Positions 1 to 12,890 of a stretch of DNA of 64,000 bases are shown here, piece after piece. Position 1 is the first letter of the stretch. Every line of letters begins with the position of its first letter. A program made the translations under genes and the position numbers. The notes under the pieces were generated by a model. The model saw nothing but the letters and a program-made list of their open reading frames with translations, was not told the DNA's origin and made no database searches. Source of the stretch: Chromatiales bacterium (lineage in GTDB: Bacteria > Pseudomonadota > Gammaproteobacteria > Steroidobacterales > GCA-2729495); contig JAFIFS010000007.1 of assembly GCA_020831895.1 (NCBI GenBank), positions 62,001 through 126,000 of the forward strand, given 5' to 3'.

Positions 1-1
1 C

Positions 2-379
2 GGGATTCACACCTATCCGCAGTGGGAAGGCAAGTCGATAGACGAGGCGCTGCCCTACACGATCGAGAATATCGAGGGAGTTCGCGCTGCCCTGCCGAAC
101 CGGCCCGTGGCTGTGCTGGAGGCGGGCTGGGCAACAACAGCCGAAGAGTTCGGAGAACGTGCGGACGCACGCAAGCAAGCGGGTCATTTTGATGCGCTGG
201 CCGCCTGGGGCGAAGCCGAGGGTATTACCGTGTTTTTCTTCTCCGCGTTCGACGAGCCCTGGAAGGGCGATCCCGCGAGGCCCCTGGGAGCCGAGAAGCA
301 CTGGGGAATCTTCTACGTCGACCGCAGCCCCAAGTACATCCTGTGGCGGCCTGGCGCCGGTGACAATGACCAAGGCTGA
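2..379 (+). CDS. Glycoside hydrolase family 17 (beta-1,3-glucanase type), C-terminal part
   Basis: Only the last 125 residues are present; the gene runs in from the left edge in frame 2. The fragment reads GIHTYPQWEGKSIDEALPYT near its start and carries VLEAGW (codons at about 113-130), matching the GH17 nucleophile strand (Glu in E-x-GW). It then shows FFFSAFDEPWKG and EKHWGIFYVDRSPKY, which are characteristic of bacterial GH17 C-termini. GH17 enzymes cleave or transglycosylate beta-1,3-glucans. The gene is followed by a GH16 gene in the same direction, supporting a laminarin-type glucan role. Signal peptide and full length cannot be judged. Family call is confident; exact specificity is inferred. 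Confidence 0.85.
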   Translation, partial: GIHTYPQWEGKSIDEALPYTIENIEGVRAALPNRPVAVLEAGWATTAEEFGERADARKQAGHFDALAAWGEAEGITVFFFSAFDEPWKGDPARPLGAEKHWGIFYVDRSPKYILWRPGAGDNDQG

Positions 380-1520: not shown

Positions 1521-3113
1521 ATGACCACCGCTCGATGCGCCATCCGCAGATGCAACTTGCCCCTCGCATTGGCTGCATCCCTCGCAATCGGTGGTTGCTT
1601 CGGCCAGGGTGATGGCCCCGAAAGGATTCCCGGCACCCCGGCACCGCCTCCCCCTGATATCCCGCCCGGCTTCTGCGATGTGATCAACTTCGAGGATGTC
1701 TGCGGTCCGGTTACGTTCATCAACTTTGAGGGCGGGGTCTCACAGGTTGTCGTCAACCCGTTCCCGGGAGGCATCAATACAACGGATCGTGTCGCCCGGA
1801 TGCTCAAGTTTCCATCCCAGTTCACTTTCGGTGGCAGCACTCTGCCGCTGCCTGCAGGCGTCGACTTCTCGCTCGGAACGGCCTTCACGGTGAAGGTCTG
1901 GTCGCAGCGCCAGGTGCCTGTGCTGTTCAAGCTCGAGGGCCTTGAGGTGGAACGCTCCAGAACTCATGACGGCGGCAGCACCTGGCGGCAGCTTTGCTTT
2001 GACTTCAGCGGCGCCACGGCTGGGCCGGCGGTGACCGGAATGACGGTGATCTTCGACATTGACGTCATGGGCAACGCCGATGCTGACCCTGGCAACTGGA
2101 CCTTCTACTTCGACGAGATCACGCAGGTGGAGTTCTGCGAAGACAGCGGGGAGCTGGTGAATTTCCCGATCGATTTCGAGGGCGATCCGTCGAGCTATGT
2201 ATTCCGCGACGGCGGCGGGTTCGCTGGCGGGCAGGCGTCGGTGATCAGCAATCCGGAGCCGGATGGCAATGACAGCGCCCAGGTCGGGCAAATGCTGAAG
2301 TTCGCGGGCGATGTATTCGGTGGCGCGACACTGGACCTGGACGGCCCGTTGAACCTGGCACCGGGCAGCGCGTTCACGATGGATGTCTGGTCCCGCCGCC
2401 CGGTACCGGTTACGGTCAAGCTCGAGGGCGGGCCGGTAGGCGAGGACACGGCTTTCCATACCGGTTCGGGATGGGAGACGCTGTGCTTCGATTTCAGCGC
2501 GCTCTCAGGCAGCGGTACGGATGGCATCACGCTGATATTTGACCTCGGCGTCAACGGCGCTGCGGCCACGGATCCGCTGAACTGGACTTTCTACTTCGAC
2601 AATATCGACCGTGCACCGCCCTGCGAGGACGATGGCTTCCGGGTGGTTCTGCCTGTTGATTTTGAGGGCGTGCCGCCCGTGTTCGACAACTTCGAGGGTG
2701 GCGTCTCGACCGTGATCGATAACCCGGTTCCGGGGAGCATCAATACCAGCCCCCGGGTGGCCCGTATGCAGAAGTTTGCTGGTGAGGTATTCGCCGGCAG
2801 CACGCTGCCGCTGGGCAGCCCGATCGACTTTTCGGCCGGCGAGGTCTTCAGGATGCTGGTCTGGTCGCAGCGGCCGGTCGACGTGCTGTTCAAGCTTGAG
2901 CGCGAAGGGCCGGAGCTTCAGCGTAATCCTCGTCATGGGGGCTCAGGCTGGGAGGTGATGTGCTTCGACTTCACGGGAGATACACCCGGAATCCAGGTCG
3001 GCGGGATCACGCTCATATTCGACCTCGGTGTTGTTGGTGATGCGGCCAGCGACCCGGACAACTGGACCTTCTACTTCGACGATATCGAACAGGTCGAGAG
3101 CTGCGGGGGGTAG
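1521..3113 (+). CDS. Lipoprotein with three tandem carbohydrate-binding-like repeats
   Basis: 530 aa with lipobox AIGGC (Cys26) and a Pro-rich spacer (GTPAPPPPDIPP). It is made of three homologous units of about 150-160 residues. They open with INFEGGVSQVVVNPFPGG, IDFEGDPSSYVF and VDFEGVPP...NFEGGVSTVI. Each contains a VWSQRPV- or VWSRRPV-like strand, a GITLIFDLGV-like strand, and a closing NWTFYFD(E/N/D)I motif followed by a Cys. The repeating beta-strand pattern, lipid anchor and position between a GH16 and a glycosidase gene suggest surface glycan binding, as in other glucan-use loci. I cannot name a CBM family from sequence alone. No catalytic motif is visible. The stop at 3111-3113 lies 6 bp before the next gene. 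Confidence 0.75.
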   Translation: MTTARCAIRRCNLPLALAASLAIGGCFGQGDGPERIPGTPAPPPPDIPPGFCDVINFEDVCGPVTFINFEGGVSQVVVNPFPGGINTTDRVARMLKFPSQFTFGGSTLPLPAGVDFSLGTAFTVKVWSQRQVPVLFKLEGLEVERSRTHDGGSTWRQLCFDFSGATAGPAVTGMTVIFDIDVMGNADADPGNWTFYFDEITQVEFCEDSGELVNFPIDFEGDPSSYVFRDGGGFAGGQASVISNPEPDGNDSAQVGQMLKFAGDVFGGATLDLDGPLNLAPGSAFTMDVWSRRPVPVTVKLEGGPVGEDTAFHTGSGWETLCFDFSALSGSGTDGITLIFDLGVNGAAATDPLNWTFYFDNIDRAPPCEDDGFRVVLPVDFEGVPPVFDNFEGGVSTVIDNPVPGSINTSPRVARMQKFAGEVFAGSTLPLGSPIDFSAGEVFRMLVWSQRPVDVLFKLEREGPELQRNPRHGGSGWEVMCFDFTGDTPGIQVGGITLIFDLGVVGDAASDPDNWTFYFDDIEQVESCGG

Positions 3114-3119
3114 CATCCG

Positions 3120-6100
3120 ATGTCATCTGCCTTGGGGCGTCACGGTTCTCGAGGGCCCGCCACGTTGCGGGGCCTCCTGGTCATGCTCTGCTGGCTTGTG
3201 CCGGCTGGCGCGGGAGGCCTTGCCCAGGCGTCGGAAAAGGTCACCACGTTCAGGGACGAAGAAGGCTGGCGCCTGCTCGTCGACGGCCAGGACTTCTACG
3301 TCAAGGGCGTGGTCTGGAGCTACACGCCCAGGGGCGAGAACTACACCTACAACCTGTTTGGCAGATCCGAGGAGTATATCCGCGCCGTAATCGACTACGA
3401 CTTCAGCATGATGAGGGCTGCCGGGATCAACAGTATCCGCAGCTTCATGATGATTCCACCAGAGTGGGTCACCTACATCTTCGAAAAGTACGGCATAAGG
3501 ACCGTGATCAACCCGCTGATGGGGCGCTATGGCACTACCGTGGGCGGCCGTTGGGTGGAGTTCACCGACTACTCGGACCCACTGACAAGGGCGACTCTGA
3601 AGGCTGAGAGCGTGGCCATCGTCGAGCTGTATAACGGCGTCCCCGGTGTGCTGATGTTTGCCTTTGGCAACGAGAATAACTACGGGCTGTCCTGGTCCAG
3701 TTTCGAAATCGAGAACCTCCCTGTCGGCGAGCAGGATACAGCCCGCGCCCGCTTCCTGTATTCACTGTTCAACGAGGTCATCACCGCTGCGAAGGAGGTC
3801 GCCCCGGACTATCCCTATGCCATCGTCAACGGCGACATCCAGTACATCGACCTGATCGCCGAGCTTGTACCCGAACTGGATGTGCTGGGGAGCAACGTCT
3901 ACCGTGGGCGCAGCTTCACCGACCTTTGGTCCCGGGTCGACGAGCGCCTGGATGTTCCGGTGCTGTTCTTCGAATTCGGCAGCGATGCTTACAACGCGAG
4001 AGAGGATCGTGAGGACCAGGTGGCGCAGGCCGACTACCTCTTTCACCAGTGGAGCGAGATGTACCGCAAAGCCTGGGGTAATGGCGAGGAGGGCAACTCG
4101 ATCGGTGGCTACGTCTTCCAGTGGCGGGACGAATGGTGGAAGTACTTGCAGGAGGAGCGCCTCGATATCCATGACACCACGGCCTCCTGGTCCAACGAGG
4201 CCTACCAGTTCGACTGGATGCCGGATGCCCCAAACATGAATGAGGAGTGGTTCGGCATCGCAGCGCTGGGTACCCGCAACCGGGATCGCGTGGCCACGGC
4301 CCGCCCACGCATGGCGGTCGATGTGCTGACGGAGGTCTGGAAGATCGACCCGTATCGCTCACGACCTGCTGAGATCGCACAGGCGTTGGAGCAGATCGAC
4401 CTCGATTACCTGCAGCTGCGCGCCGAAGTGCGCCGGCTTGTGGACCTGACCGAGGAAACCAGGAGAACACTCCGGTTCACCGGTGGCGAGCTGCGCCTGG
4501 AGATGCTGCTCAAGGGCGAATCGTCGAGAATCAAGGAGCAGGGCGAGGATGGCGTCGAGTTCTCTGATGGTCAGATGGTCTTTCTGGATTTCGAGTTCGC
4601 ACCGACCAACCGGATCAGGGGCGAGTTTACCGTAAACATCCTCGGCAACGTCGCCGACACGGAGCCGCTGGAAATCCAGTACGGTCGGCGGGGCCTCCCT
4701 GTGGAGGTCGTAATTGCCCCTGATGGCGACCCTTCGGTCGTGACGACCCGCAGCTTCGACGACCGGGGGCGCATCGAGATCTACGACTTCAATGCGACCT
4801 ACTCAGGGGTGTCGTTCGACATCGAGGCGTTCTACAACACGCCGCGTTTTCACTGGAAGTACGAAGGAGATTTCTTCGGACTGATTCGCGAGGCTACCGA
4901 CATTGCCGGAGGCGACATCTGGAACTCCAAGGCTCCGCAGGGTGTGGAGATACAGGGCAAACAGGGCTGGCTGGACGGGCTTACGCTGCTTTTCGGGCCG
5001 GAAGTGTACTGGGGCGCTAATCCCAAAGCCGTACTCAAATACGATTTCAGCCTCGGCAACTATGACCTGACGTTCATCCACTCGGAAGATGTCGCCCGGC
5101 TGGATGATTCGGCTACTGCGACGCAGGCCACGGAGCGTCAAACCCGGCAGACTACGCTCTACCTGACCCGGACCTTCGGTGACGCCTTGACGCTCGAGCT
5201 GGGCGGCATCATGTCGGCTACCGAAAAAATAGGCGACGAATTCACCCGCTTGTCTGGCCAGAACATCATTCTGGACCAGATTGAATTCAAGGATACCCTC
5301 GGCGTAAAGGGTCGCTTGACCTTCGATTACCTGAATACTCGTTCCTACGTCGCTTTTGACCTCGCAGGCCTTGTCGCCGACGGTGGTGATCCGCTGCGCG
5401 AATTCGGCACTCGACTGCCTTACTCCTCGCTGGGCAACAAGCGGGAGTACGAAGCCGGCGTGATGCTGAATTTCGGGAACTTCATGCTGTTTCCGCGGAT
5501 TCTCTACCGCGACAACCTGGTGGATGCCAACCCCAACATCCAGGCGGATATCGGAGGCCCAGGCAACACCACCCTGTTTCCAGGGCTCCAGGTGCGGAAT
5601 CGTGAAAAGGACCCTTTCGCTGTTCTGGGCAACCGGGAAGCGCGTGCTGCAGAGATATTCCTGACTTACGACCCCACGCCGGAAACGTTCTTCTACGCAT
5701 GGGATAACGACATGCGTGAGGATGCCCGCCTGGCCTACAATATCGGCCTCAACGTCACGCGCTATCCCACGGCCACCGATGCCTTCCAGTTTTTCTTTGA
5801 GGAAGGCGGCATCAACGCGCCATTCGGTGCGGGCCTGCCCAAGGAAACCGTCTGGACAGCCTCCTCACGGGTGGTTTTCAATCCGACGGTCAATGCCAGG
5901 TACATCGCCAATCTGCTGGTAGGCCGGGATCAGTCCACCGGCGACCCGGAGGGGGGCACCCGGCGCTTTTACGAAGTGGCGGGGAAAGCGGTACTCGGCG
6001 GGCGCCATATCCTTTCTGGTCACTTCAAGTTGGATGCCTGGGGGCCTTACGACTTTCACCGCCAGTTCAACCTGACCTACCCGAAACAGCTCAAGCTCGA

Positions 6101-6266
6101 TTATTCGATCCTGCTGGACCAGAACCGTGACCCCCTGAGATCCACGCAGATCGGTATCCGGGGGGAGTACAGGACGCTGGACGAGAACTCACCCGGGGAC
6201 GAGTTCCGGGATGGGCTGAACAGGTACCTGTTCCAGACGGTCTTCTACCTGATCTACCGGTTCTGA
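3120..6266 (+). CDS. TIM-barrel glycosidase (GH2/clan-A-like) fused to a predicted outer-membrane beta-barrel
   Basis: 1048 aa. A signal peptide (about 1-37, ...GGLAQA/S) is followed by a clan GH-A TIM barrel at about 43-400. It has FYVKGVVWSYTPRGENYT at the start, GNEN at 183-186 (acid/base Glu185) and VLFFEFGSDAY at 281-291 (nucleophile Glu285). A short helical linker (about 425-450) leads to roughly 590 residues of alternating strands rich in aromatic/charged pairs, with no further enzyme motif. The chain ends in YLIYRF, the terminal-Phe signature of outer-membrane beta-barrels. I read it as an enzyme tethered by its own barrel to the outer membrane. The fusion is intact, with no frameshift. 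The substrate is probably a beta-glucan oligomer, inferred from neighbours. Confidence 0.75.
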   Translation: MSSALGRHGSRGPATLRGLLVMLCWLVPAGAGGLAQASEKVTTFRDEEGWRLLVDGQDFYVKGVVWSYTPRGENYTYNLFGRSEEYIRAVIDYDFSMMRAAGINSIRSFMMIPPEWVTYIFEKYGIRTVINPLMGRYGTTVGGRWVEFTDYSDPLTRATLKAESVAIVELYNGVPGVLMFAFGNENNYGLSWSSFEIENLPVGEQDTARARFLYSLFNEVITAAKEVAPDYPYAIVNGDIQYIDLIAELVPELDVLGSNVYRGRSFTDLWSRVDERLDVPVLFFEFGSDAYNAREDREDQVAQADYLFHQWSEMYRKAWGNGEEGNSIGGYVFQWRDEWWKYLQEERLDIHDTTASWSNEAYQFDWMPDAPNMNEEWFGIAALGTRNRDRVATARPRMAVDVLTEVWKIDPYRSRPAEIAQALEQIDLDYLQLRAEVRRLVDLTEETRRTLRFTGGELRLEMLLKGESSRIKEQGEDGVEFSDGQMVFLDFEFAPTNRIRGEFTVNILGNVADTEPLEIQYGRRGLPVEVVIAPDGDPSVVTTRSFDDRGRIEIYDFNATYSGVSFDIEAFYNTPRFHWKYEGDFFGLIREATDIAGGDIWNSKAPQGVEIQGKQGWLDGLTLLFGPEVYWGANPKAVLKYDFSLGNYDLTFIHSEDVARLDDSATATQATERQTRQTTLYLTRTFGDALTLELGGIMSATEKIGDEFTRLSGQNIILDQIEFKDTLGVKGRLTFDYLNTRSYVAFDLAGLVADGGDPLREFGTRLPYSSLGNKREYEAGVMLNFGNFMLFPRILYRDNLVDANPNIQADIGGPGNTTLFPGLQVRNREKDPFAVLGNREARAAEIFLTYDPTPETFFYAWDNDMREDARLAYNIGLNVTRYPTATDAFQFFFEEGGINAPFGAGLPKETVWTASSRVVFNPTVNARYIANLLVGRDQSTGDPEGGTRRFYEVAGKAVLGGRHILSGHFKLDAWGPYDFHRQFNLTYPKQLKLDYSILLDQNRDPLRSTQIGIRGEYRTLDENSPGDEFRDGLNRYLFQTVFYLIYRF

Positions 6267-6295
6267 CGATGGCCGTGCAAGGAGGAATCGTCGAT

Positions 6296-7009
6296 ATGTC
6301 GACCAACCATCATCTTACGGTCGCGTCCCCGCGGGCTAGATTCTGGAGGCTGATTGGCGCAGGCCTGCTCGCGATGCTGCTCTCAGCGTGTGAAAGCCCG
6401 AGCGATTCCGAAGGGGTCGTGATCAACCAGATCCTGCTGCCGGCCGACACGCTGCTGAACCTTGCGTGCATCGATGTGGGCATCGGTGCTGAGACCTGCG
6501 TGCTCGGTGACCCGGAGAACCCGTTCGCACTGGTGGCGACGCCTGAATTCGATGTCAACAACCCTGACGCCGAGACCAAGTTCGACCTGGCCAACAAGAT
6601 ACCGGCCGGGCCGACGGGCGCCAAGGCTCGTTTCTACCTGTGGGCCACGGCACTGGCTCGGCGCCCGTCCGGTGAGAACCAGTGGCTGACAGCGAGAGCG
6701 CTGCATGAGCTGTACGATGCCAACAGTGACCCGCTGATCCGGGAGCAGGCGCTGCGTGCCTACCGCTCGGTCCTGGACAACTTCTTCGGCTCAGTGACGT
6801 TCTTCGAGTTCGGCGGCGTGTCGTTTCCGGCCACACTGAACGAGCGGGTGGCCGACGACCTGTTCCGTACCGAGGCGACCGGGTTCGTGCGTCTGGTCCC
6901 CGGCGATCCCATCAACGTGCTCGCTCTTTTCGGCGATTGGGGATATACCTACCGCCCGGCGACGCCACCGGACTTCGTCGACGGCCTGGTGTTCGTCAAT
7001 ATCTTCTGA
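6296..7009 (+). CDS. Lipoprotein of unknown function in the glucan locus
   Basis: 237 aa from ATG 6296, chosen because AAGGAGG lies about 10 bp upstream; a longer reading from 6269 lacks this. A signal peptide ends in lipobox LLSAC (Cys32). I recognise no family. Visible features are a possible disulfide pair in the stretch LACIDVGIGAETCVLG, a helical middle containing TARALHELYDANSD, and an aromatic C-terminus ending DGLVFVNIF. It follows the glycosidase-barrel gene by 29 bp, so co-transcription is likely. Its last 61 bp overlap the 3' end of the convergent lacI-type gene. A role as an accessory surface protein of the glucan system is a guess from position. Confidence 0.7.
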   Translation: MSTNHHLTVASPRARFWRLIGAGLLAMLLSACESPSDSEGVVINQILLPADTLLNLACIDVGIGAETCVLGDPENPFALVATPEFDVNNPDAETKFDLANKIPAGPTGAKARFYLWATALARRPSGENQWLTARALHELYDANSDPLIREQALRAYRSVLDNFFGSVTFFEFGGVSFPATLNERVADDLFRTEATGFVRLVPGDPINVLALFGDWGYTYRPATPPDFVDGLVFVNIF

Positions 7010-8040
7010 CCCGGGGCTGGCCCGGTGGATTCCCTGATTTTGATCGTGCCCGCTATGATTTCCGAGAGAGAGCCGTCAGCCTTCTGCGGAGTGTGGGCGA
7101 CCAGAGCCTCGACCGCACGCTCTGCCATGCGGGCCAGTGGCTGCCGGATGGTTGTCAGGTTCGGGTAGACCTGCTGGGCGAGGGCGCTGTCGTCGCAGCC
7201 TGCAACCGACAGCTGCTCGGGTATCCGGATGCCACGAATGATGACCTCCTGCATCACGCCGGCCGCCATGTCGTCATTTGCAGCGAAGATGGCAGTGGGT
7301 GGATGCTTCAGCTCAAGCAGGCGGGCGGCCGCGGTTTTTCCGCCTGGCGTCGAGTTGTCACCCTGGAGCACCAGCGAGCGGTCCAGTGGGATCCCGCTCT
7401 CCCGCAGGCCCTCACAATAGCCGGAATACCGGTTCTGGACCGCGCTGTGCTGACGGTGTCCCTTGATGAAGCCGATCCGCGTATGCCCCAATGAGACCAG
7501 GTAGCGGGTCATTTCCGAGAAAATCTCGTGATCGTTGGTGGAAATAGAGCACGGTGTTTCCTGTTTGCCACCCGGCGACAGCCTGACCAGCGGCGTACCG
7601 CTGCCTTCTATTGCGCGTACAAGCTCCGGGATATTGGACAGGGGAGCGGCCAGGATAATGCCGGCGGGCCGGACCTGGGATATCAGCGCGTCGAGCTCTG
7701 ACACGACCTCCCGCTCGGCGTAGCTGTAGGGGTGAATCAGCAGCTCATGACTGGCAGCCCGGCAGGCCCGCAGCGCCCCACTTTGCAGCCTCAGCACGTA
7801 GCCGCAGCTGGCCATGTCATGCGACTCGGGATCCTCGTAGATCAGCACGATCAGCCGGGAACGGCGGCTCGCGAGGTTGCGGGCAAACTGGTTGGGACGG
7901 TAGCCGAGGACCTTGATGGCTCGCTCTACCTCGGCACAGGTATCCGCACGCACGTTGGGCTCCCGGTTGATCACGCGGGAGACCGTCTTCGGGGACACCC
8001 CGGCCAGTCGGGCAACGTCGGTTATGGTGGCTTTGATCAT
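6949..8040 (-). CDS. LacI-family transcriptional regulator, probable glucan-locus repressor
   Basis: 363 aa. The N-terminus has the canonical LacI helix-turn-helix (ITDVARLAGVSPKTVSRVIN at 6-25) and hinge helix (about 54-61). A periplasmic-binding-protein-like sugar domain follows: LVSLGHTRIGFIKG, PTAIFAANDDMAAGV and the C-terminal TTIRQPLARMAERAVE. It lies 116 bp downstream of the phosphorylase gene on the same strand and may be transcribed from the same operator-bearing promoter, giving autoregulation. The effector is unknown; LacI regulators of this kind usually sense the locus's oligosaccharide or an early metabolite. The last 20 residues overlap the convergent lipoprotein gene. Family certain; regulon inferred from palindromes at 442, 11750, 11890 and 12049. 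Confidence 0.93.
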   Translation of the reverse strand: MIKATITDVARLAGVSPKTVSRVINREPNVRADTCAEVERAIKVLGYRPNQFARNLASRRSRLIVLIYEDPESHDMASCGYVLRLQSGALRACRAASHELLIHPYSYAEREVVSELDALISQVRPAGIILAAPLSNIPELVRAIEGSGTPLVRLSPGGKQETPCSISTNDHEIFSEMTRYLVSLGHTRIGFIKGHRQHSAVQNRYSGYCEGLRESGIPLDRSLVLQGDNSTPGGKTAAARLLELKHPPTAIFAANDDMAAGVMQEVIIRGIRIPEQLSVAGCDDSALAQQVYPNLTTIRQPLARMAERAVEALVAHTPQKADGSLSEIIAGTIKIRESTGPAPGQKILTNTRPSTKSGGVAGR

Positions 8041-8156: not shown

Positions 8157-11100
8157 TCAGCCCGTTGCGCCCCCGGAGAAGAGTGAATGTTCCGGGAAGA
8201 CGAGCTCGATCCTTCTGATTGCCCCGGTGCGCTTGAACACCTCGGCGCTCTCGTCGTGCTCCAGCCAGTTACGCGGCAGGCGGCGCTCGCTTCCGTCCCG
8301 AAGCACCAGTGTCAGGGAGGGGTGCCGGGCCTTGCCAATACCGTAGATCACCGGCAGCTGGCACCAGGAGAACGCCAGCGTGTTCTTGGCAAGCTCGATC
8401 TGCTGCCAGGACCCGTCCACGGCCAGGTGGCGGAATATTCCTGCCTGGCCCAGCAACTCCTGTGTCCGCAGCAGGGCGGGTTCGAAACAGACTTTCCCGC
8501 CCCTGACGCGCAGGCCAAGCTCCCCAAATCGCGTGATGATTTCTTCCTTGACCTGTCCGGTCATGCCGGGCTGCGAGGCCCCGGCGTGCCTCGGGGTATG
8601 TGAGTAAGGATCGGTGGGGAACGCTCCGTATTCCCCGGGCTGCTTGTTGAACCCAAGGCCGGCCCTGATGCTGTAGTAGAGTACCCCCAGGGACTGGCAA
8701 AGTTCTGCTGACTCATCCGCTTCCCGGGCGCGAAAAAAAGCCTCCTGGGTCGCAAGTAGCAGCTTGGCGACCATATGCCAGTAGATAGATCCGAGGCCCT
8801 CGAACGCGAACATGGTGCCGGAACGCCCCGTGAAGCGCTTGTGGTTGAACACGGACTCGTAGACTGCCTCGATGGCGGCCTCGCTGCCCTCGACGGCATC
8901 GCCATAGTCGGGCACCAGGGCCCGCAGCTGCTCCCTCAATGCCCTCGCGTTCTGCAGGCCGGGGTGGAAGCGATAACACCCTTCAGCATCGAGCAGCACG
9001 ATCCGCTCGTCACCCCGATCCAGCATGCACCTGAGCAGAGGGATGCCTTCGAGCTGGCCTGCATCAATACGGTTCTTCTCGAGGAACGCGGGCAGCTTCC
9101 GGTCCGGATACAGCATGAAGCTGTGCTGGTCCTTCCGGTACATCTCGCTGGCAAAAAGTGCCTCCAGCAGCCTGACGGCCTCCCTGGCAGGAACCGCTCC
9201 GGAGTCCAGTGCCGCGACCTGGCCCTCGAGCATCGGATACAGACGACTGATTTCTGCCATCCCTGGCTGCAGCTCAAGCAGGTTGTAGGTGTGGTAGAGG
9301 CCGTCAGGGCGTCGGTTTCCAGTGATGCTGTGGTCCAGAGCGGCAGCCGTGTCATCCAGCAGCTCCTGGAGAGTCTCGGCGGAATGCTCGACTGTGCCGG
9401 AGTACCCGTCGATCCGGTAGATCGACGAACGGTAATGGCTTGCCGCCTCACCCAGTTCCTTGAGTGAGTTGAAGCGAAGGCTGGCGTCCACTCGGCCTGC
9501 TGTGAGTCGTTTACGCAGGCGCCTCATGGCATCTGACGTCGCCGACAGCCACTGGCTGACCTCGACAGACAGGACGATCGCGCAACCCTGACTCTCCAGC
9601 AGTTGCGCAAGCAGCCGCACATAGCGTCGCATATGGCACAGCGTGACCACAGACAGCCCGTGGCCCACCAGCGCGTTGTTGGCATCGTTCCACTCAGGCC
9701 GCTGCGTATTGAGCCAGATGCCTCCGCCAGGCACGAAGTTGGCCAGCTTGGCCAGCATCGGGACCAGCAGCTTTTCCAGCAGCGTCACCTGGTAAACCTC
9801 GCCATCGGGCGCTCTGACCAGCTTTCCGTCAGCGCCGATCGCCGCTACGTGCTGCTCGATACGTGCGGCAAGGTTGTGGTCATAGTCGACCGTATGCTTC
9901 GGATCGCGCAGCTGCGCCTGGAAGGGCCTGATGCGGTAGGGAACATTGGCATAGCTGAAAAGCGGCGTATGCAGCAACTGATTCAGGCGTGCCGGGTGGT
10001 ACTGGACCGACAGTTCGAGCAACCTGAGCAGGTAGATGATCTGGTGGTCGCCCCAGTAGCCGATGTGGCTCCAGGGATTGTCGGGCTCCTCGACTTCCCA
10101 GTCGATGCCCTCCTTGGTGATCCGGTAGGGGTTGTAGCCATCCCTGGTCGAGGCATTGACGAACTTGGCGATCATGCTCTCGATCATTTCCGGGAAGGCG
10201 AGCGCCAGCGCTTCCCAGTTCTGGAAGATGTCGCGCCAGTTGCCTTCGTAGGACAGCAGCCTGCTACCGTCCTCGTCCCGGAGGCGGATGGTGAAGTGAT
10301 TCCACGGCCGGCTTGGGTCGCCATGGCGTCGCCCAAAAGTCAGCGGCAGGTACTCGCGGGCCAGCCGCAGCAGCTGCATGTCGCCATGGGCGGATACCCT
10401 GGCCAGCAGATCCTCCAGCGGCAGTGCATCAGGCAGCTGCAGCAGAAAATCGCGGCTGCGGTCGTGTACCTCGCGGTTGGAGCAGGCCACGGTTCGCCTG
10501 AAATCCTCGGTCGGCACCGAGTACTGGTCGAAGAAAACGCCGCCACGCATGCCATTGAACAGCGTATTGGCGTAGTGGTGGACGACAACGGCTTCTTCAG
10601 CCGCCAGCTGGAAGCCATCGCAGCTGGCCACGGTTCGCGCCAGGCTGTCGCTGCCCTCAGCGACCGAGCGGTCGATGGCGGCGCTGAGCTGGTCGGGCTC
10701 CTGCAGCGCTCGACGCAGCGCAACCACGTCCTTCTGGCTCTGCTCGGTGTTGGCTACCATCCGCCAGACCACCGGTGCCCCGCCAGTCAGCTCGAGACTG
10801 CTCGCCGGAAGGTAGGCCCCGCGGACACCGCGCACCAAGGCTTCCGCACGCAGTGCTGAGCCCGCCTTGAAGCCATCGATCTGGGCCGTGGAGAGCAGGT
10901 GAGTACTGGCCTTCAGGCCCAGGCAGAACACCGTGGTGGCTCTCAGCGATTCCGCAGGCTCGGCGCGGTCGGTGATGGCCGAGTAGAGCGTCAGGATGGC
11001 CAGCCCGCTTTCGGGGTAGAGCTCGTTCCACTTGTAAGCATCCACCAGGTTGCTGACGTTGGTCTGTGCGTAAAGCTTTGTGCCGGCCGGCAGCAGGTTC

Positions 11101-11636
11101 TGCAGCCCGTCCAGCAGGTCAACGGCAAGCGTGCCAGGACCGTCATACTGGAGCTGGCACTGGCGGACAAAACCGTACTCACGACTGGTCATCCATGTGC
11201 AGCGGAAGCGCAGCTTGAGGTCATGGTTGATCTCCTCGAAGGAGAGCTTGTTGCCAAGGACGGTCTTGTAGAGGTTGCGCGTGATCGCATACCGGCCGCC
11301 GTGATCGCGACTGAATGGCTCCCAGATATGCACATCCGCGGCGTCATGCACGCGCAGCAGCGTCCGGCTGCCGGTATGCCCCTGGCTGTCGTGAATCTTG
11401 TCGACGGTGACGTAGGGGAAAAGGGCATTATCCGGTGAGACCCTGCCCGCGGTCACGGCACCATTCGAGGAGGCAAACAGCCAGTGGTCGTCGCTCGAAA
11501 CCAGGCTGATCAAGAACGGAGACATCTGTTCTACGTCGCAGATCAGGTAGCTGCGCTCCCCTGCAAGGTCGACAAATTTCCCTTGGGGCCTTGGCTGTTG
11601 GCTCATCGTGCCGCGGAATGGCTGGTGGGCTTTCAC
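8157..11636 (-). CDS. Large GH94-superfamily phosphorylase, GH149-like (candidate beta-1,3-oligoglucan phosphorylase)
   Basis: 1159 aa from GTG 11636, which has GAGGA 4 bp upstream; ATG 11606 is an alternative with no clear ribosome site. There is no signal peptide, so it is cytoplasmic. An N-terminal beta-rich domain (about 25-340) precedes an (alpha/alpha) barrel with SYEGNWRDIFQNWEAL (462-477), GYWGDHQIIYLLRLLEL (526-542) and RPEWNDANNALVGHGLS (646-662). The Asp of WND (about 651) aligns with the general acid of GH94-type enzymes. Length and motifs fit GH149 better than classical GH94 cellobiose phosphorylases of about 800 aa. Neighbouring GH16 and GH17 genes point to beta-1,3-gluco-oligosaccharides, yielding glucose 1-phosphate. 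Superfamily confident; family number moderately so. Confidence 0.75.
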   Translation of the reverse strand: MKAHQPFRGTMSQQPRPQGKFVDLAGERSYLICDVEQMSPFLISLVSSDDHWLFASSNGAVTAGRVSPDNALFPYVTVDKIHDSQGHTGSRTLLRVHDAADVHIWEPFSRDHGGRYAITRNLYKTVLGNKLSFEEINHDLKLRFRCTWMTSREYGFVRQCQLQYDGPGTLAVDLLDGLQNLLPAGTKLYAQTNVSNLVDAYKWNELYPESGLAILTLYSAITDRAEPAESLRATTVFCLGLKASTHLLSTAQIDGFKAGSALRAEALVRGVRGAYLPASSLELTGGAPVVWRMVANTEQSQKDVVALRRALQEPDQLSAAIDRSVAEGSDSLARTVASCDGFQLAAEEAVVVHHYANTLFNGMRGGVFFDQYSVPTEDFRRTVACSNREVHDRSRDFLLQLPDALPLEDLLARVSAHGDMQLLRLAREYLPLTFGRRHGDPSRPWNHFTIRLRDEDGSRLLSYEGNWRDIFQNWEALALAFPEMIESMIAKFVNASTRDGYNPYRITKEGIDWEVEEPDNPWSHIGYWGDHQIIYLLRLLELSVQYHPARLNQLLHTPLFSYANVPYRIRPFQAQLRDPKHTVDYDHNLAARIEQHVAAIGADGKLVRAPDGEVYQVTLLEKLLVPMLAKLANFVPGGGIWLNTQRPEWNDANNALVGHGLSVVTLCHMRRYVRLLAQLLESQGCAIVLSVEVSQWLSATSDAMRRLRKRLTAGRVDASLRFNSLKELGEAASHYRSSIYRIDGYSGTVEHSAETLQELLDDTAAALDHSITGNRRPDGLYHTYNLLELQPGMAEISRLYPMLEGQVAALDSGAVPAREAVRLLEALFASEMYRKDQHSFMLYPDRKLPAFLEKNRIDAGQLEGIPLLRCMLDRGDERIVLLDAEGCYRFHPGLQNARALREQLRALVPDYGDAVEGSEAAIEAVYESVFNHKRFTGRSGTMFAFEGLGSIYWHMVAKLLLATQEAFFRAREADESAELCQSLGVLYYSIRAGLGFNKQPGEYGAFPTDPYSHTPRHAGASQPGMTGQVKEEIITRFGELGLRVRGGKVCFEPALLRTQELLGQAGIFRHLAVDGSWQQIELAKNTLAFSWCQLPVIYGIGKARHPSLTLVLRDGSERRLPRNWLEHDESAEVFKRTGAIRRIELVFPEHSLFSGGATG

Positions 11637-12206: not shown

Positions 12207-12890
12207 ATGATGAGAACAACAAGCGCGAGCGCCATCATCGGAGCATCCTTCGTGCTGCTTGCCGGGACGGCTCAGGCGGCGACAGTGCAAGATGTCGCCA
12301 TCAACGGCGACTTTGAAGCCGGACTCGACGGCTGGCTTCAGTTTCCATCCGGCGGAACCATCGGTATCGCAGCCGACAACGGCCCAAGTGGGCCTGGCTC
12401 ACAATCCGCTCAGCTGATCGCGGACGGATCGGGTGGTCCCTCGTTTCCGCAGATAAAGCTCGAGCGACTCGCCCCGGGCCTCCTGTTCCCCGGAGCAGAT
12501 GTTACCGTCCAGTACGACGCGCGTTCACCGCTCCAGACGCAGAACATCAACGCAGGCGATTTCGTCGGTAATGTAGTGTTTATTGCCGAGCTTTTTTCCG
12601 AGTTCGCCCAGGACGGCGCAACGAACGAGATCCTTCAGGGCCCGCCGAATTGGCTGACAGAGGACTGGCAGACTTTCACGTTTACCACCACACTCGGTCC
12701 CGACGTGGCGGGCGGTCTGTCGCTGCTGTTCAAGGCTGACTGCGGCGCCAACCCAGACTGCCGGTTCACCGCGTTGATCGACAACGTCTCGATCACCACC
12801 GCCGTCGTTCCGATACCTGCAGCCATGTGGCTTTTTGGCTCGGCCTTGGGCCTCATGGCATTCATGCGCCGGCGAGCCGCAGTCGCCTGA
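12207..12890 (+). CDS. Exported PEP-CTERM sorting-domain protein with a CBM-like jelly-roll domain
   Basis: 227 aa. A signal peptide (cleavage near ...GTAQA/A, about 25) is followed by a domain starting INGDFEAGLDGWLQF and ending FTALIDNVSIT, a pattern seen in CBM4/9/22-like jelly rolls. The C-terminus is a classic PEP-CTERM tail: VPIPAAMWLFGSALGLMAF then the basic MRRRAAV. Such tails are recognised by exosortases, which are not encoded in this window. AGGGGAA lies a few bases before ATG 12207; ATG 12210 is equally possible. It is expressed away from the phosphorylase gene across a region with operator-like sites, so it may bind or package glycan outside the cell. The PEP-CTERM call is firm; ligand unknown. 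Confidence 0.85.
   Translation: MMRTTSASAIIGASFVLLAGTAQAATVQDVAINGDFEAGLDGWLQFPSGGTIGIAADNGPSGPGSQSAQLIADGSGGPSFPQIKLERLAPGLLFPGADVTVQYDARSPLQTQNINAGDFVGNVVFIAELFSEFAQDGATNEILQGPPNWLTEDWQTFTFTTTLGPDVAGGLSLLFKADCGANPDCRFTALIDNVSITTAVVPIPAAMWLFGSALGLMAFMRRRAAVA

Follow-up and report, generated by a model that had tools for sequence, protein, structure and literature searches.

A clan GH-A glycosidase fused to a predicted outer-membrane beta-barrel in bacterial beta-glucan loci

A single gene of a gammaproteobacterial laminarin-type locus encodes a glycosidase joined to a predicted outer-membrane beta-barrel. It lies in the window, the whole 64,000-nucleotide stretch of Chromatiales DNA analysed here. 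For this fusion we computed an intact frame, a glycoside hydrolase (GH) fold with an invariant catalytic pair, a barrel-type fold, deep conservation and a characteristic gene neighbourhood. Given the models and the conservation, the fusion architecture itself is hardly in doubt. The reading we favour, without holding it firmly, is a porin-like barrel whose periplasmic mouth carries a hydrolase and which serves a laminarin-type locus; insertion, side, pore, substrate and coupling are all inferred. Much of the carbon exchanged in the oceans passes through laminarin, a leading currency there, and SusCD/TonB systems receive most of the credit for taking it over the outer membrane. The fusion family, found in at least 10 phyla, offers a concrete and testable candidate route over the outer membrane for laminarin loci without susCD, in which enzyme and outer-membrane pore would be joined in one chain.

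An intact fusion gene and its locus

The fusion gene is one open reading frame of 1048 codons with no internal stops, as seen in the ORF list and the translation, and is present once in the window's own genome. The sequence-only reading had reported this intact frame with GNEN at residues 183-186, a FFEFGSDAY stretch containing E285 and a YLIYRF end, all of which proved correct; the protein terminates FYLIYRF. As a single sequence, it has no match in Pfam, NCBIfam, PHROG or PDB sequences. The locus reads MFS_2-GH3-GH17-GH16-lipoprotein-fusion-lipoprotein-LacI-GH149, with GH3 and the divergent MFS_2 sugar transporter just outside the window, upstream on the same contig (Pfam, L086). Its features within the window, and the parts of the fusion, are as follows.

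1..379, forward strand: 3' end of the GH17 gene (Pfam on upstream contig L086)
441..1457, forward strand: GH16 lipoprotein, probable laminarinase (PF00722, 5.6e-24)
1521..3113, forward strand: lipoprotein with three repeats, probable surface glycan-binding protein, function inferred (ORF)
3120..6266, forward strand: fusion gene, 1048 aa, signal peptide, clan GH-A glycosidase, linker and predicted outer-membrane beta-barrel (ORF, translation, AlphaFold2)
3120..3230, forward strand: Sec-type signal peptide region, residues 1-37 (LLVMLCWLVPAGAGGLAQA), without a lipobox (read from the sequence by eye)
3240..4310, forward strand: GH-A TIM barrel, residues 41-397, putative acid/base E185 and nucleophile E285 (AlphaFold2, Foldseek, invariant residues, GH2_C in relatives)
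4311..4472, forward strand: helical linker, residues 398-451 (DSSP on the model)
4473..6263, forward strand: predicted outer-membrane beta-barrel, about 24 strands, residues 452-1048, ending YLIYRF (AlphaFold2, Foldseek, loop pattern)
6269..7009, forward strand: small lipoprotein with an LSAC lipobox, directly 3' of the fusion (neighbourhood and alignment)
6949..8040, reverse strand: LacI-family regulator (PF00356, PF13377)
8157..11636, reverse strand: GH149 1,3-beta-glucan phosphorylase (NF058639, 1591 bits, cut-off 1150)

Two lipoproteins flank the fusion. The upstream one ends 6 bp before it, clusters with proteins found directly upstream of the fusion in two other loci (L002 and L026) and found no match in a Pfam search; its repeats are of ~160 residues each, and it is possibly a new glycan-binding protein. 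The downstream one, which has no PDB or PHROG match, belongs to a family whose genes adjoin the fusion gene of Gammaproteobacteria, Cloacimonadota, Geobacteraceae, Myxococcota and a spirochaete. Members of this family (~190-280 aa) share an invariant lipobox cysteine and a GENQYYTA-type motif and make a candidate partner of the fusion. Just past GH149, positions 12207-12890 encode a protein that matches CBM_4_9 weakly and ends in a VPLPA/PEP-CTERM-type tail.

A GH158/GH2-like enzyme

An AlphaFold2 model of the full-length protein, built with 67 window and locus sequences (pLDDT 86.6, pTM 0.74), comprises a TIM barrel at about residues 41-397, helices at 398-446 and long antiparallel strands at 452-1047. 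The linker is the least conserved region of the fusion. All 67 of the 67 homologues compared carry G183-N184-E185 and E285, which sit at TIM strands 4 and 7 of the model (177-182 and 281-286). With a TIM barrel, NE after strand 4 and Glu at strand 7, the criteria of a retaining clan GH-A glycosidase are met, which upholds the earlier assignment of both catalytic glutamates to a clan-A barrel.

The family to which this enzyme belongs is less readily named. Foldseek searches of PDB with the full model placed GH158 first (E 4.7e-15) and GH2 enzymes next, while the family profile, run against PDB sequences, reached GH158 at 3.7e-7 over ~140 positions only and GH2 at 4.4e-5. The hhalign probability against GH158 is 99.6%, indicating a shared clan and not membership, and phmmer with the fusion protein found no GH158 match at E 10. 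GH158 membership was rejected on this null result and the short, weak profile match, set against the 2.8e-107 at which a neighbouring GH158 gene matches GH158(Pro) (PDB 9oro, released 2026). GH158 proper, at ~600 aa, adjoins the fusion in about nine gammaproteobacterial loci and occurs in or near the fusion locus of about ten genomes (L006:13770-15602 and L008:3835-5631, with similar genes in L007, L009-L012, L016, L021, L033 and L067). All 24 tested relatives match the GH2 TIM-barrel family of Pfam (PF02836, GH2_C) at E 0.01 or better, the one relative shown scoring 26.7 bits where the cut-off is 21; the Pfam search of the window's fusion protein gave no GH2 match at E 1 or below. As judged by sequence comparison, the fused enzyme is GH158/GH2-like yet distinct, a separate lineage of the clan, since the neighbouring ~600-residue gene is the true GH158.

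A predicted barrel of about 24 strands

Modelled alone, the C-terminal 637 residues form ~24 antiparallel strands (pLDDT 90.2, pTM 0.84). A Foldseek search of PDB with this half returned outer-membrane beta-barrels as all 50 of its top 50 matches, and these were of many kinds, including AlgE, OprD-family proteins, chitoporin, MOMP, TonB-dependent transporters, FimD, LptD and MtrB. In the search with the full model, the C-terminal half matched AlgE, OccAB4, OpdL and chitoporin. No TM-score exceeds 0.46, a low value that probably reflects a number of strands unlike that of the matched barrels. Fold searching of BFVD brought up nothing beyond noise and porin/SusC-like proteins, and none of the Pfam families reported for the 24 tested relatives is an outer-membrane barrel. 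The sequence-only reading had named soluble beta-sandwich domains as the outcome that would refute its barrel; that test has now been run, and the long strands resemble outer-membrane barrels only, with no beta-sandwiches among the matches. A signal peptide, an even number of amphipathic antiparallel strands (hydrophobicity alternation, z 6.9 against shuffles), alternating loops and the fold match together meet the criteria of an outer-membrane beta-barrel, although closure and the exact strand number are estimates from DSSP. Both halves of the fusion would be new families.

The loops also bear on orientation. Connections between the 24 longest strands alternate between long and short (on average 22.3 against 5.5 residues, p 0.0004 by permutation), a p-value that is only indicative because the strands were hand-picked from the same DSSP string. 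Short turns of outer-membrane proteins are periplasmic, and both the N and C ends of the barrel lie on the short-turn side; strand 1 would thus have its N side, and with it the enzyme, facing the periplasm, provided that the chain does not run back via the lumen. On the strength of the model, a periplasmic enzyme domain is probable. The earlier wording, that the catalytic domain is displayed or retained at the outer membrane, also allowed for an autotransporter-like arrangement in which the GH domain leaves the cell by way of the barrel or alongside it and cuts polymer extracellularly. The modelled part order of signal, enzyme, helix and C-terminal barrel is indeed that of a type Va autotransporter, but such proteins have 12 strands, not ~24, and neither the window protein nor the 24 relatives match the autotransporter domain (PF03797), on which grounds type Va membership was rejected. 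The locus, moreover, already has its GH16 lipoprotein available for surface work. With the loop asymmetry placing the N side at the periplasm, retention there is supported and surface display becomes quite improbable.

Conservation in the predicted outer loops of the barrel is no lower than in its strands. Columns conserved at 90% or more make up 15.7% of the predicted outer loops versus 9.7% of the strands, and the conserved loop residues include W, D, N and F. Such conservation is unusual for porin loops and fits, by inference, a ligand-binding constriction or ligand-specific channel.

The terminal phenylalanine is narrower in meaning. The last residue is F in nearly all members of the window's clade, against a background of 2.3% F (3.6% F, W or Y) at the ends of 606 other long ORFs. 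Relatives in the Bacteroidota/Gemmatimonadota/Myxococcota clade mostly end in L, M, I, W or K, so the terminal Phe marks the window's clade and not the whole family.

A widespread and apparently old family

A scan of GTDB genomes gave at least 588 pattern matches, at least 565 of which encode fusion relatives, and 80 loci were kept for analysis. These span at least 10 phyla and include Pseudomonadota, Cloacimonadota, Geobacteraceae, Spirochaetota, Myxococcota, Gemmatimonadota and Eisenbacteria, together with Krumholzibacteriota, Zixibacteria, Delongbacteria, Ignavibacteriota, Balneolota and Bacteroidota. Nearly all kept relatives align by blastp from about residue 35 to 1025-1048, and full-length homologues from many phyla are 38-65% identical. 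The 67 full-length sequences form a tree that splits deeply into two halves, and its 13 groups take 12 changes, the fewest possible; in most loci of the window's half, the small lipoprotein is the next gene after the fusion. Because the tree tracks phyla so closely, the fusion appears old and inherited largely with its lineage, as far as this sample tells.

The barrel was not found without the enzyme in searches with the barrel alone. Of 198 genomes in the order of Flavobacterium paronense (L072), 6 were positive, each with the barrel in a frame of 1042-1082 aa; the window's phylum gave 2 positives among 399, with frames of 1046 and 1050 aa. A search of the class with the whole protein found three full-length frames and a fourth truncated at the edge of its contig; the fifth match (L005) was weak, belongs to another protein and was set aside. 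By these sequence comparisons, the architecture is that of a widespread conserved family and is not peculiar to the window's genome.

Neighbourhoods point to beta-glucan

Among the 57 loci of at least 10 kb, 52 contain one or more beta-glucan GH genes and 44 contain two or more. GH16 is the most frequent (38 loci), followed by GH149 (26), GH17 (23), GH30 (22), GH3 (11), GH1 (9) and GH158 (8). An importer occurs in 36 of these loci, either MFS_2 (25) or ABC (11), and regulators of the LacI/ROK/GntR type are also among the neighbours. Most neighbour clusters were assigned by one Pfam-tested representative each; the GH1, ABC permease and ATPase clusters were assigned by reading of the sequence. 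Together with the GH16, GH149, GH17 and GH3 genes of the window's own locus, these counts strongly support the link to beta-glucan that had been suggested from the letters alone, and we regard a role of the fusion in beta-glucan use as very probable.

The same neighbours speak to the direction of transport. The barrel's resemblance to AlgE raises the thought of an exporter that secretes and edits a self-made beta-glucan, in the manner of AlgE, BcsC or PgaA with a hydrolase, and exopolysaccharide machines do pair a barrel with a periplasmic hydrolase. However, no glycosyltransferase or synthase cluster recurs among the neighbour families listed, and the neighbours are catabolic (GH149 phosphorylase, sugar importers and these regulators). 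Exopolysaccharide export was rejected on this neighbourhood, and we give it very little credence.

Import, anchoring and TonB-dependent transporters

We lean towards an import pore, with pore activity being inferred. As proposed, a retaining clan GH-A beta-glucanase or beta-glucosidase would be tethered by the helical linker at the periplasmic mouth of a ~24-strand outer-membrane barrel, with laminarin-type beta-1,3/1,6-glucan as the substrate class. The surface GH16 lipoprotein would trim the polymer, and the pieces would cross the outer membrane via the barrel. The fused enzyme would cleave them on emergence, keeping the gradient inward and stopping back-diffusion. GH17 and GH3 would act next, MFS_2 would carry small sugars over the inner membrane, and GH149 would phosphorolyse them after import. 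The earlier suggestion of a combined hydrolase and pore for beta-glucan thus remains a possible reading, supported in its enzyme-barrel fusion and beta-glucan setting and still inferred in its BAM-dependent insertion and its pore function.

TonB-dependent transporters (TBDRs) are the obvious competitors for this task. The window's own locus has none, leaving the fusion as its only predicted outer-membrane channel; the nearest lies ~15 kb upstream of the fusion gene, within a CobN/CobW cluster. This cluster, on the contig upstream of the window (L086:30-10692), comprises CobN, a TonB-dependent receptor and two CobW genes and is probably for cobalamin or metal uptake. In one set of 47 large neighbours, two match TBDR models; for 44 in the other set, no TBDR is among the 25 families listed. 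The nearest TBDR in the Flavobacterium locus (L072) is ~24 kb from the fusion, and the fusion is present in genomes with three TBDRs in total, namely Thiomicrorhabdus (L028) and an Ectothiorhodospiraceae member (L009).

Alternatively, the barrel may be an anchor only, plugged or too narrow for glycans; it would tie a periplasmic glycosidase to the outer membrane, and import of the glycan would fall to a different transporter. SusC/SusD adjoin the fusion in some related loci (L074), and a survey of Woeseiaceae MAGs reports a single SusC gene in seven of their laminarin PULs (PMC12175321), so import need not be the task of the fusion. Of the 18 TBDRs in the window's genome, only one is on the fusion's contig, and those elsewhere could import laminarin; a barrel modelled by AlphaFold2 can be a plugged one, and its lumen could be occupied by the linker helices. 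Yet ~24 strands far exceed what an anchor needs, the predicted outer loops are conserved and most loci lack a TBDR. We therefore consider an anchor alone unlikely, and continue to prefer the import pore. The broadest form of that reading is a TonB-independent glycan importer whose built-in hydrolase pulls beta-glucan inward, ancient across Bacteroidota, related phyla and Proteobacteria and replacing SusCD in many laminarin loci; this we offer only tentatively.

Comparison with known systems

No outer-membrane enzyme-porin fusion was described in the literature searched, most subscription papers and preprints being outside its scope. SusC/TonB-dependent transporters likewise serve outer-membrane glycan import in comparable loci and have barrels of similar size. 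Unlike them, the fusion has no Pfam match to the plug (PF07715) or the TBDR barrel (PF00593), in the window protein or the 24 relatives, and TBDR membership was rejected. Chitoporin, the OprD/Occ family and AlgE are outer-membrane barrels that Foldseek matches to the fusion barrel, with no sequence similarity found; they have 16-18 strands, fewer than the ~24 of the fusion, and lack an enzyme domain.

On the enzyme side, the GH158 endo-beta-1,3-glucanases BuGH158 (PDB 6pal) and GH158(Pro) (PDB 9oro/9p26) are the best structural match of the N-terminal half. They share clan GH-A, NE on strand 4, E on strand 7 and an association with beta-1,3-glucan loci, but identity within the structural match is only 13-16%, and BuGH158 bears an Ig-like domain and no barrel (PMC7157763). 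GH2 glycosidases have in common with the 24 tested relatives the TIM-barrel Pfam, whereas the fusion lacks the GH2 jelly-roll and Ig domains. The closest precedent for a transporter and a glycoside hydrolase in one polypeptide of laminarin loci is FbGH17B of Formosa, an MFS-GH17 fusion (PMC6246565); it differs in having a helical inner-membrane transporter, no outer-membrane barrel and another GH family.

Relatives of the fusion may already be present in published loci. Laminarin loci without susCD are reported from a Colwellia bin (PMC10811738). Flavobacterial laminarin PULs are described as containing a LuxR regulator, a 'GH2' gene, GH16, GH149, GH30, GH17 and MFS (PMC13188888), and 'variant 1' PULs read GH149-GH0-GH30_1-GH17; GH0 is in the top 10% of expressed genes of one abundant MAG, and one PUL of this variant lacks susCD (PMC10108472). 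The text consulted mentions no barrel for the 'GH2' or 'GH0' genes. Our loci L072 and L080-L082, the last of them from Flavobacterium aquatile, resemble these PULs in content and order, with a LuxR-type regulator, the fusion in the place of 'GH2'/'GH0', a PKD or other non-enzyme gene, GH16, GH149 and GH17/GH30/MFS. From this synteny and the GH2_C matches we infer that the published gene is likely, though not proven, to be a fusion relative. The fusion family may be the 'GH0' that metatranscriptomes list among highly expressed laminarin genes.
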